NCBI RefSeq assembly: GCF_001427285.1 | Contig: NZ_LMFV01000012.1 | Location: 213,469 to 277,468 of the forward strand | Length of the DNA stretch: 64,000 nt | Reading direction: 5' to 3' | DNA from: Mesorhizobium sp. Root552 | GTDB lineage: Bacteria > Pseudomonadota > Alphaproteobacteria > Rhizobiales > Rhizobiaceae | The notes under the pieces: generated by a model | The model's database searches: none | Seen by the model: only the letters and a program-made list of their open reading frames with translations | What the model was told of the DNA's origin: nothing | Position numbers and translations under genes: made by a program | Shown here: one piece after another, positions 15,949 through 50,656 of the stretch | How positions within the stretch are numbered: the stretch's first letter is position 1 | Layout: every line of letters begins with the position of its first letter

Positions 15949-15987
15949 ACCAGAAAGCACCCGGGGGCGCACAGCGCTGCCGGGTGT
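15949..15987 (-). terminator. Possible terminator downstream of the CPBP protease gene
   Basis: Read leftward, cacccgg and ccgggtg form a 7-bp stem (about 15958-15985) followed by ctttctggtttt. It lies about 135 bp after the CPBP stop and before the ffh start. Confidence 0.45.
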
Positions 15988-16120
15988 TGGCCTCCGGGAT
16001 CGATTTTACAGCTCCAGGCCAATATGGCCACGGCGTCCCGGTCAGCTTCGCGAAAGTGAACTTGTCGCGGAATTGCGGCGTGTAGACAGGAAAATAGCGC
16101 CAGAGTCAAGCTTGCGCCAG

Positions 16121-41143: not shown

Positions 41144-41284
41144 CGTGCCAATTCCATAGGAGAACGAAGGTGTGAAAGGACGGAGCCGAAATACAAGCCG
41201 CGACCGGCAATGTCGAGGGCCAAGCGCTGGCCGGTCGCACGAGCCGTTGACGAGGTGCATGGCCAGGACTAGATAGAAGGCTGT

Positions 41285-41343
41285 TCCGTGGTGATTTGGC
41301 CGGTCGGCTTGCAGCCACGTTAAAGAAGTCGCTAAACAGGCCG
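41285..41343 (+). ncRNA. SAM-II riboswitch controlling metA
   Basis: P1: cgtgg (41287-41291) pairs with ccacg (41315-41319). Pseudoknot: ggcc (41298-41301) pairs with ggcc (41339-41342). The conserved tgattt after P1, ttgcag before its 3' strand, and ttaaagaagtcgctaaa between match the SAM-II consensus. It lies 64 nt before the metA start. SAM-II elements occur mainly in alphaproteobacteria before met genes and shut translation when S-adenosylmethionine binds. Confidence 0.92.
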
Positions 41344-41406
41344 AGGATGACAAATCCATTCAGACCTGCTGCGGTTTCGTCGCCGTTTCTGTTTGGAGTT
41401 TGTCCA

Positions 41407-47123: not shown

Positions 47124-47420
47124 ATGTCCCGCGCTTGCGAACTTACCGGCAAAGCCGTCCTGACTGGCAATAACGTCAGCCACGCCAACAACAAGACCCG
47201 CCGCCGCTTCCTGCCCAATCTGGTCAATGTCACGCTGATCTCGGAAGCGCTGAACCAGAATGTGCGCCTGCGCATCTCCGCCAACGCACTGCGTTCGGTC
47301 GAGCATCGCGGTGGTCTCGACGCATTCCTTGCCAAGGCCGACACGGCCGAGCTTTCGCAGCGTGCGCGCCTGTTGAAGAAGCAGATCGCCAAGAAGCTCG
47401 CCGAACAGCCGGCAGCCTGA
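47124..47420 (+). CDS. rpmB: 50S ribosomal protein L28
   Basis: 98 residues. [33 protein letters not shown] is diagnostic of L28, and [23 protein letters not shown] completes it. No CxxC zinc pairs. Monocistronic: rpmG, often next to it elsewhere, is absent. A stem aaggcgg/ccgcctt (47432-47452) follows the stop. Confidence 0.97.
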
Positions 47421-47482
47421 AGCAGACTTCCAAGGCGGGGGACGACCGCCTTCCACGGAACGTCGTCTTCTCGGTCGATGTT

Positions 47483-47516
47483 CCACTGGTTCCATAACCC
47501 AGGATAAAAAAATGAG
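47483..47516 (+). ncRNA. preQ1-I riboswitch controlling yhhQ
   Basis: P1: ctgg (47486-47489) pairs with ccag (47499-47502). ggttc, then accc and gataaaaaa are the conserved features of class I preQ1 aptamers. The pseudoknot strand that normally follows the A-rich tail is atg at 47512-47514, which pairs with cat in the loop (47493-47495): this is the start codon of the queuosine-precursor transporter. Ligand binding would therefore hide the start codon itself and the nearby agga. Confidence 0.85.
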
Positions 47517-48189
47517 TTTCCTTACTCGTTACCTGCCCTTCGTGGCTGCCATGGCGGTTGTCGTGGTCGCCTCCAACATACTCGTGCAATTTCCGCTGCA
47601 AGGCGAGGTGGCCGGCCTGGCGCTCGCCGACGTGCTGACCTGGGGCGCGTTCACCTATCCGTTCTCTTTCCTGATCACCGACCTTGCCAATCGGCGCTAC
47701 GGGCCATCCGTTGCGCGGCGCATCGTCTTCGTCGGCTTCATGACGGCGGTGGTATGTTCCATCCTCATCCCGCCGTTGCTGTTCAGGCTCGGCCTGATCG
47801 AGTTCGACACGGCGGCGGCGCGGCTCGTGCGCATTGCCTGCGCGTCGGGCGCAGCATTTCTTTCGGCGCAACTGCTCGACGTCACGGTGTTCAACCGGCT
47901 GCGCCGGCAAAGCTGGTGGCGTGCGCCGATCTTCGGCACGCTGGCCGGTTCCGTCGTCGATACGGCGGTGTTTTTCTCGGTCGCCTTTGCCGCCGCTTTC
48001 GCCCTTCTCGGCCCTGATGACGGCTTCGCGCTGGAGACGGCGCCGCTGATGGGTGTCTTTTCGGTCGAGGCGGCGCGCTGGGTGTCGTGGGCGCTCGGCG
48101 ACCTCACGGTCAAGCTCGCCATCGCCGTCTTCGCGCTGATCCCCTACCGGCTGATCGCCGCGCGCTGGAGTCAGCCGGCGGTCGCGTGA
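47512..48189 (+). CDS. yhhQ: Queuosine precursor transporter (VUT family)
   Basis: 225 residues, six membrane helices. VVVASNILVQFPLQG, LTWGAFTYPFSFLITDLANRRYG and LLDVTVFNRLRRQSWWRAPIFGTLAGSVVDTAVFFSVAF are the COG1738/YhhQ signatures. Imports preQ0 or preQ1 for tRNA queuosine. The start codon is part of a preQ1-I riboswitch, which independently supports the substrate assignment. Confidence 0.93.
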   Translation: MSFLTRYLPFVAAMAVVVVASNILVQFPLQGEVAGLALADVLTWGAFTYPFSFLITDLANRRYGPSVARRIVFVGFMTAVVCSILIPPLLFRLGLIEFDTAAARLVRIACASGAAFLSAQLLDVTVFNRLRRQSWWRAPIFGTLAGSVVDTAVFFSVAFAAAFALLGPDDGFALETAPLMGVFSVEAARWVSWALGDLTVKLAIAVFALIPYRLIAARWSQPAVA

Positions 48190-50498: not shown

Positions 50499-50656
50499 GA
50501 CGGTCTGCGCCTCGCGACAGGAGAGACATTTCCCCGGGGCCTTATTGATCCCTAGGGAGCTGTCCCTGACCGGGCCCGTGGGCTCGGACATATGGCGCCC
50601 ACCTACTTTGTAGGTTCCCGGGATCAACTTCTCCATCGGTTGCGTGGATCGTCGCT
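50499..50656 (+). ncRNA. ssrS: 6S RNA
   Basis: Closing stem: gacggtctgcgc (50500-50511) pairs over 12 positions (three G-U) with gcgtggatcgtc (50642-50653). Next, ggaga pairs with tctcc. The central bubble is bounded by ttgatccc/gggatcaa. The 3' arm has the alphaproteobacterial hallmark cacctactttgtaggttcc before the gggatcaa strand. It lies immediately upstream of the 5-formyltetrahydrofolate cyclo-ligase gene, the conserved place of 6S RNA across proteobacteria. It binds the sigma-70 holoenzyme in stationary phase. The usual upstream gene zapA is absent. Confidence 0.88.

Follow-up and report, generated by a model that had tools for sequence, protein, structure and literature searches.

Control of yhhQ by preQ1 riboswitches is already known from various bacteria (PMC5372724). 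The closest described system to the one presented here is the type III preQ1-I riboswitch of Escherichia coli yhhQ, which has been crystallised (PDB 8fza; PMC10622847). The E. coli YhhQ protein is described as a preQ0/preQ1 transporter (PMC10622847; PMC5372724), and the E. coli type III RNA strongly prefers preQ1 (PMC10622847). The bases that contact the ligand or form the ceiling of its pocket in the crystal are U6, U7, C8, C14, the G5-C15 pair, and A25-A27, of which A27 contacts preQ1 and C8 belongs to the ceiling (PMC10622847). Type III, which McCown 2014 reportedly defined with 293 sequences, is almost exclusively gammaproteobacterial (PMC10622847). A survey including 15 Rhizobiales genomes found preQ1 switches mostly limited to Firmicutes (PMC3766115).

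The control modes listed in a 2024 review of the preQ1 family are indirect, partial, and full occlusion of the Shine-Dalgarno (SD) sequence, termination, and domain docking (PMC11625349). Start-codon occlusion is not in Table 1 of that review, and the words 'start codon' were not found in its text. Parts of such a design have precedents: SAM-I switches with the ribosome-binding site in the 3' side of P1 (PMC2258182), an AUG hidden in the expression platform (PMC10907184), and the odc1 motif (PMC8632094). No description of an element like the one reported here was found in the open-access literature, which was searched by title and the start of the abstract; the search did not cover McCown 2014.

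The element presented here lies in the yhhQ leader of Mesorhizobium sp. Root552. It is probably a type III-like preQ1-I riboswitch that serves as a translational OFF switch for yhhQ by occluding its start codon. We assign this reading a probability of about 0.82; ligand binding and repression are inferred, and there are no binding or expression data.

Organization of the element in the yhhQ leader

The analysed window is a 64,000-nucleotide stretch of contig NZ_LMFV01000012.1. Direct reading of its forward strand at positions 47486–47514 gives CTGG-TTCCATAAC-CCAG-GATAAAAAA-ATG, the 3' end of which is the yhhQ start codon (Table 1). The CTGG and CCAG strands form stem P1, and the CAT triplet of the loop pairs with the start codon to form P2 of an H-type pseudoknot, as shown by the comparison of relatives below. 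The initial annotation, made from sequence alone, had claimed a preQ1-I layout, a match between ligand and gene, and the CAT/ATG pairing. These claims were upheld by the family comparison, and the positions given for the stem, CAT, and ATG were exact. The SD-like AGGA overlapping P1, the closest relationship to type III, and the lineage with an apparently shifted start had not been mentioned.

Table 1. Features of the yhhQ leader and gene (window coordinates)
Feature	Position	Strand	Basis and remarks
Predicted hairpin P0, directly 5' of P1	47457..47484	+	accessory; absent from some relatives
P1 5' strand CTGG	47486..47489	+	sequence; CTGG in 123/128 family leaders
9-nt aptamer loop TTCCATAAC	47490..47498	+	sequence and conservation
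P2 5' strand CAT (anti-start-codon), pairs with ATG	47493..47495	+	invariant in 32 distinct elements
P1 3' strand CCAG	47499..47502	+	sequence, family comparison
SD-like AGGA, half in P1 (AG inside), 7 nt 5' of ATG	47501..47504	+	sequence
L3, A-rich linker GATAAAAAA	47503..47511	+	role from E. coli structure papers
P2 3' strand, yhhQ start codon ATG	47512..47514	+	sequence, ORF, family leaders
First base of codon 2 (+4), A here	47515	+	pairs with the base 5' of CAT in TGG and TGC subtypes, not in the TTC subtype of the window
yhhQ, queuosine precursor transporter, 225 aa	47512..48189	+	ORF, TIGR00697, PF02592

The comparisons were based on several collections of loci. The 130 yhhQ leaders were chosen by protein match and comprise 30 from the genus (window included), 98 from other genera of the bacterial family of the window, called here the rhizobial family, and 2 from other families. 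For the genus, the 30 highest-scoring of 37 matches were used, and the 98 leaders were hand-picked, one to three per genus, from part of the protein matches. Pattern scans of genome contigs yielded at least 118 loci, and the 77 with a YhhQ match 3' of the motif were counted. Most of those listed by name among the 41 uncounted loci are from other phyla; one (L264) ends right after the motif, and another (L292) has no YhhQ match. A set of 149 dereplicated rows was derived from 206 loci, 161 of which have the motif and a YhhQ ORF of at least 150 aa; 12 of these were dropped because their last 150 residues were identical to those of another row. This set overlaps in part with the 123 motif-bearing leaders and the 77 genome-contig loci. 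The pattern scans fix most positions of the element, so that invariance there is partly by construction; the two bases 5' of CAT and position +4 were left free. The genome searches covered ATG starts with CAT loops, and GTG starts with a CAC loop were outside their scope.

P1 is paired in 32/32 distinct elements. The only change in its 5' strand is from C to T in four of the 149 rows, all from Bartonella, which retains a U.G pair. The loops fall into three subtypes, TTC, TGG, and TGC, according to the bases 5' of CAT. The SD-like site reads AGGA in 111 of the 123 family leaders, another AGG in 10, and AGCC in 2; CCAGG is found in 142/149 rows and CCAGC in the remaining 7, which are Aureimonas-type. 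Because the SD-like AGG(A) overlaps P1, the initiation region lies within the aptamer. L3 is nine nucleotides long in 144/149 rows, with its run of A partly fixed by the search pattern. The ATG of the element is in the YhhQ frame in all 73 TTC and TGG loci among the genome-contig motif matches and in 115 of 116 TTC and TGG family leaders, the last of which has no YhhQ match. A P0-type stem of seven or more is present in 37/70 TTC, 4/46 TGG, and 2/7 TGC leaders.

The single-sequence fold of the 38-nucleotide element is unremarkable (z 0.52), and the folding energy therefore proves nothing. Window positions 47488–47500, GGTTCCATAACCC, share a CAU plus AACCC pattern with the anticodon stem-loop of initiator tRNA, in which CAU is followed by AACCC. 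The likeness beyond the shared CAU is likely to be coincidental, because loop positions 7 and 8 vary among relatives.

Comparison with the type III riboswitch of E. coli and with other systems

The Rfam preQ1-I family (RF00522) gave no match at its gathering threshold in the window, and none at E values up to 10 for positions 47200–47800. In Rfam 15, the E. coli K-12 yhhQ leader (L149:5175-5220) is likewise unmatched by RF00522 at E values of 10 or less. Since the model misses a proven type III riboswitch, the missing match says little against the riboswitch reading. The same scans gave no Rfam match for preQ1-II (RF01054) or preQ1-III (RF02680).

The E. coli leader reads TTGGG TTCCCTCAC CCCAA TGGTTAATCAAAA AGG. 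Both it and the rhizobial element precede the same gene family, yhhQ, whose control by the latter is inferred from this position, and both consist of a hairpin and an H-type pseudoknot with a nine-nucleotide loop TTCC[A/C]T(N)AC. The loop of the TTC subtype, TTCCAT(N)AC (TTCCATNAC), has the same length as TTCCCTCAC and differs from it in one base, the middle base of P2, and at the variable position; the TGG subtype is less pyrimidine-rich. Also shared are UU after the 5' strand of P1 (TTC subtype), AC before its 3' strand, an A-rich L3, and an A directly 5' of the 3' strand of P2. UU follows the P1 5' strand in the window and in all TTC rows (81/149), and UG in the other 68/149. The C before the P1 3' strand, the specificity base, is present in 149/149 rows, in part of which it is fixed by the pattern.

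The mapping of the window onto the numbering of the E. coli crystal structure (PMC10622847) is our own. It equates T47490 with U6, T47491 with U7, C47492 with C8, C47498 with the preQ1 specificity base C14, A47511 with A27, and the last three A before ATG with A25, A26, and A27. The mapped loop order is U6, U7, C8, C9, C10 changed to A, U11, N, A13, and C14. The TTC subtype retains all of the E. coli contact bases listed above. Loop position 8, equivalent to the E. coli gatekeeper A13, is A in 127 of the 149 rows (77/81 TTC rows as opposed to 50/68 TG rows) and a pyrimidine, C or T, in the other 22. U7 is missing from TGG and TGC, and C8 from TGG as well; the pocket of these two subtypes must therefore differ.

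The same pseudoknot might bind another ligand in place of preQ1. Candidates are preQ0, queuine, and other 7-deazaguanines, and the TTC and TG subtypes might not share one ligand. This alternative is favoured by the transport of both preQ0 and preQ1 ascribed to E. coli YhhQ and by the bases missing from the TG subtypes. However, the strong preference of the E. coli RNA for preQ1 and the contact bases retained in the TTC loop speak against it, and we consider it unlikely.

The main difference from the E. coli riboswitch is the target of P2. In E. coli, the loop CCT pairs with AGG of the SD sequence, whereas the rhizobial CAT pairs with AUG. The E. coli pairs U11-A28, C10-G29, and C9-G30 correspond to rhizobial U-A, A-U, and C-G, so that E. 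coli A28 G29 G30 becomes A U G, and the change of C10-G29 to A-U turns an anti-SD strand into an anti-AUG strand. L3 is nine nucleotides long, compared with 13 in E. coli (with a P1 of five base pairs). Only the rhizobial elements have the SD-like AGGA in P1/L3 and two extra loop subtypes with a fourth P2 pair reaching into codon 2. In place of the 3' tail AAGG (SD) that type III contributes to P2, the rhizobial tail is AAUG with the start codon. Because this defining tail is absent, the element was classed as a type III-like variant of preQ1-I and not as a member of type III.

The type III pattern GGTTCCCTCACC...AAAAGG matched 23 sites in 22/299 genomes of the phylum, none of them in the class of the window, and 21 of the 23 sites precede YhhQ. 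This comparison set has AAGG by construction of its pattern. The outer P1 pairs of type III vary yet remain paired in examples such as TTGGG/CCCAA (L336), CGGG/CCCG (L340), CTGGG/CCCAG (L343), and GCGGG/CCCGC (L344), which were not counted over all sites. A covariance model built from the 32 distinct rhizobial elements retrieves neither the E. coli nor other type III elements. Homology thus rests on the positional likeness of a short loop, and convergence is possible. Without statistical support for homology, both common descent with type III and convergence remain possible.

Other systems share individual features with the rhizobial element. PreQ1-I type II riboswitches (Bacillus subtilis, Thermoanaerobacter tengcongensis) have AC before the P1 3' strand, an A-rich L3, and a small H-type pseudoknot, but their P2 leads into a terminator or engages the first two bases of the SD sequence. 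In the Vibrio vulnificus add adenine riboswitch, both the ribosome-binding site and the AUG are hidden in the OFF state (PMC10907184). However, the AUG of that riboswitch is sequestered in a hairpin of its own, and the ligand switches expression ON, whereas the rhizobial AUG is in the putative ligand-binding pseudoknot and the ligand would switch expression OFF. The odc1 motif RNA (PMC8632094) is likewise a candidate cis element: its conserved part contains a start codon, and it has a pseudoknot and a ribosome-binding site at the shoulder of P1. It differs in gene and sequence, has two UUG starts and a uORF, and its ligand is unknown. SAM-II (SAM_alpha) is also a small H-type pseudoknot switch, with a different ligand and sequence and with direct occlusion of the ribosome-binding site (PMC10907184).

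The window itself contains a SAM_alpha (SAM-II) riboswitch at 41278–41356 on the + strand (85.7 bits). It also contains 6S RNA at 50499–50654 on the + strand (79.6 bits) and a match to the Rfam 'ffh' sRNA at 15950–16001 on the – strand (56 bits).

Conservation and distribution

The element is nearly invariant in the family of the window and tied to yhhQ. The motif is present in 123 of the 130 yhhQ leaders and in 123 of the 128 from the family, the window counted. Among the seven leaders without the regular motif, two are from other families (L147, L148), and in one (L078) the motif is present but its spacer is longer; the element is absent from four of the 128 family leaders (L080, L085, L109, L111). 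The exact pattern was found in 217/247 family genomes, at most once per genome, and a yhhQ match in 234/247; a reversed-pattern control had 0 matches in the same 247 genomes. Named carriers include Mesorhizobium, Rhizobium, Sinorhizobium, Neorhizobium, Shinella, Brucella, Bartonella, and Aureimonas. The conservation has sharp borders: the information per column rises from 0.10 bit upstream (-70 to -30) to 1.84 within the element and drops to 0.46 from +5 onwards. This profile was calculated from 116 leaders that passed a regular expression and a length filter, and part of the 1.84 is due to this selection. In its own genome the element has one strong copy in a covariance model scan (51.6 bits, E 4.9e-10). 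No second good copy was found there, the next site having 13.9 bits (E 5.7); the scan scored 150 of 1952 first-look candidates.

Nothing convincing was found outside the rhizobial family in the searches made of the class, the phylum, and other families. Inspection by eye of 30 other yhhQ leaders of the class, on both strands, and of 20 yhhQ leaders of other families revealed nothing similar, and the relaxed motif was matched in 0/30 and 0/20, respectively. A scan of 349 genomes of the phylum with a relaxed pattern gave 16 matches. The rhizobial element accounts for 10 of them, and the other 6, judged without a check of their genes, look like chance matches.

Pairing of the loop with the start codon and with codon 2

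The three CAT/ATG pairs are invariant, and there is no covariation of these pairs within the family; the same holds for P1, apart from the U.G pair of Bartonella. The evidence for the pairing comes from the neighbouring position, where the base before CAT faces the first base of codon 2. In the 123 leaders, TGGCAT occurs with ATGC in 46/46 and TGCCAT with ATGG in 7/7, whereas TTCCAT is followed by ATGA in 44, ATGC in 18, ATGT in 8, and ATGG in 0. The 77 YhhQ-linked genome-contig loci are distributed in the same manner, with TGG and C in 37/37, TGC and G in 4/4, and TTC with A in 21, T in 9, C in 6, and G in 0. Among the 149 dereplicated rows, TGG is found with C in 53/53, TGC with G in 15/15, and TTC with A in 48, C in 17, T in 16, and G in 0/81, so that the three-way rule is obeyed in 149/149 rows. 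The comparison shows that a fourth P2 pair extends into codon 2 in two of the three subtypes; it is unformed in 16/32 distinct elements. The role of C8 in the pocket ceiling in E. coli would explain why the TTC rows avoid G at +4.

On the best YhhQ tree, 11 changes of loop subtype are counted, of which at least 3 are forced by starred branches. This tree is of 'quick' quality and its branches are long; 11 is the count on the best tree and 3 the supported floor. Within TTC, whose pruned tree has a length of 15.5, position +4 changes 22 times; it changes 0 times within TGG (12.9) and 0 times within TGC (7.0). The probability of such a split under one uniform rate is approximately (15.5/35.4)^22, near 1e-8, which is rough arithmetic because the pruned subtype trees may share inner branches. 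The variation of +4 in TTC and its fixation in TGG and TGC indicate that the first base of codon 2 is fixed only in the subtypes whose fold uses it and can vary in the others.

The slid-register control gave 5–54% of paired cells, as opposed to 93.7% in the true register, and no both-sided change. In the shuffle control, the observed covariation score was reached in 3/500 shuffles; on two of its five measures, it was reached in 500/500. A test of independent pairs with 110 rows provided only 2–3 pairs, too few for significance, and rows were then added. The covariation and the register control are the strongest evidence that the pairing of the loop with the start codon is real.

The leader could alternatively be an ordinary conserved ribosome-binding site, in which AGGA and ATG are separated by an A-rich spacer, the hairpin is due to chance, and the complementarity of CAT and ATG is coincidental. 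In its favour are the good SD spacing of AGGA, the lack of covariation in P1 and CAT/ATG, and the non-significant single-sequence fold. However, CTGG-T..CAT..C-CCAG is conserved as strongly as the SD sequence and spacer, the base before CAT follows the codon 2 rule throughout, and the genome has no second good copy among the candidates scored. This explanation is all but excluded.

A lineage with an apparently shifted start codon

The TGC rows are of two kinds. In the eight rows with CCAGG (L236, L357-L360, L364-L366), the motif ATG is in frame in 8/8. In the seven rows with CCAGC (L193, L240, L269, L361-L363, L367), of which L193, L240, and L269 are Aureimonas, AGG is lost. The motif ATG is out of the YhhQ frame in six of these seven (L193, L240, L269, L361, L362, L367), and the CCAT/ATGG pairing is retained. 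All seven have an ATG or GTG in the YhhQ frame, located 13–16 nucleotides downstream of the A of the motif ATG, and a GGA lies 8–11 nucleotides 5' of this candidate start. The Aureimonas-type lineage thus appears to have shifted its yhhQ start downstream of the ATGG strand, the starts being inferred from the frame. On the same inference, the P2 strand would cover an SD sequence in this lineage, as in the E. coli mode. Since the start is apparently downstream, annotation of yhhQ from the first ATG would be wrong in these genomes.

These rows bear on the possibility that only P1 and the ligand pocket matter, with indirect occlusion like that of type I, and that the start-codon pairing is a bystander. 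In type I, the pseudoknot outweighs SD pairing in importance (PMC11625349), and in one lineage the CCAT/ATGG pairing persists even though the ATG is out of frame in most rows. On the other hand, the three invariant P2 pairs and the fourth pair maintained through swaps argue that P2 itself is selected, and the pairing is retained even where the start seems to have shifted. We therefore regard the bystander explanation as unlikely.

The yhhQ gene, its neighbourhood, and probable queuosine salvage

The identification of the gene as a queuosine precursor transporter, made in the initial annotation, held. The protein matches TIGR00697 with 102.2 bits, above the cut-off of 50.95, and passes Pfam PF02592 (Vut_1); it reaches 120.1 bits against the narrower NF008406, below the cut-off of 252.

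The gene rpmB, encoding L28, is immediately upstream in 61/61 testable loci, with six further loci too short. The gap between the end of the L28 match and P1 ranges from 28 to 183 nucleotides across loci, whereas the distance of the element to the yhhQ ATG is fixed. In the window, the gap is filled by hairpins at 47432–47452 and 47457–47484 (MFE -42.5 versus -30.8 for shuffled sequences). The first is a strong AAGGCGG/CCGCCTT hairpin 3' of rpmB without a T run, and similar GGCGGGGGACGACCGCC stretches were seen by eye 3' of rpmB in several relatives. It may be an element of the rpmB 3' end.

The constant presence of rpmB and the hairpins between it and the element raise the possibility that the element is a conserved cis signal recognised by a protein or an sRNA, for example in autoregulation by L28. 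Against this, its distance to the yhhQ ATG is constant while that to L28 varies. Furthermore, rpmB is upstream of yhhQ in 14 of the 20 leaders from other families, where not even the relaxed motif occurs (0/20), and the loop agrees with the pocket of the E. coli switch, whose yhhQ gene is preceded by tusA and not by rpmB. This explanation is very unlikely.

The genome of Mesorhizobium sp. Root552 encodes QueF (E 5.6e-30) and TGT (E 1.4e-153). A good QueC was not found in it: the best candidate reaches 26.5 bits, whereas the cut-off of TIGR00364 is 150.3. A match to PF06508 (QueC) is weak and formally exceeds its cut-off by a small margin (22.3 versus 22 with neighbours). The presence of QueF and TGT without a good QueC indicates that the organism probably depends on import. 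It likely lacks de novo synthesis of preQ0 and salvages preQ0 or preQ1 with YhhQ as the import gate, which is not proven in view of the weak PF06508 match. Feedback by preQ1 makes sense for such a salvager. Sinorhizobium meliloti, in contrast, has queCDE and queF (PMC3568095), and the element is also present in another S. meliloti strain (L251).

Proposed mechanism and implications

In the riboswitch reading, the aptamer and the translation initiation region are the same 29 nucleotides. Abundant preQ1 (or preQ0) would pair with C47498 and sit between P1 and P2, touched by A47511. The bound ligand would lock the pseudoknot, with the AUG buried in P2 and the SD-like sequence partly in P1, and the 30S subunit could not initiate. 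When the ligand is scarce, P2 would open, yhhQ would be translated, and the precursor would be imported. The ligand, the direction of control, and blocking by burial of the AUG rather than by general compaction are all inferred.

The initial annotation had proposed that preQ1 binding directly blocks the initiation codon. This is supported as a reading, with binding and repression only inferred. Of the checks it named, the search with RF00522 gave no match, yet is not decisive because the E. coli type III riboswitch is missed too, and the leader proved to be conserved in relatives (123/128 family leaders). As for compensatory change in the ATG-pairing loop, CAT/ATG is invariant in the family, the fourth pair swaps between G-C and C-G, and the middle pair has changed from C-G to A-U relative to E. 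coli.

A bolder reading, to be taken as one joint claim, is that most of the rhizobial family carries a further preQ1-I subtype in which the aptamer is the ribosome entry site. The SD sequence in P1, the spacer in L3, and the start codon as a P2 strand would be compressed into 29 nucleotides, with P2 reaching codon 2 in two subtypes. Start-codon and SD occlusion would interconvert by small steps via the shifted-start lineage, and both the pocket and the ligand preference may differ in the TG subtypes. We lean towards this claim by a narrow margin.

RF00522 has a gap, since it misses yhhQ switches, including the proven one of E. coli. The elements provide a natural series for asking how expression platforms get retargeted. 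If the interpretation is true, this is a natural switch that pairs the initiation codon within the ligand-binding pseudoknot and thereby constrains the first base of codon 2. Rhizobia, relatives of Brucella, and Bartonella would then possess a switch, invisible to Rfam, for the uptake of queuosine precursors.
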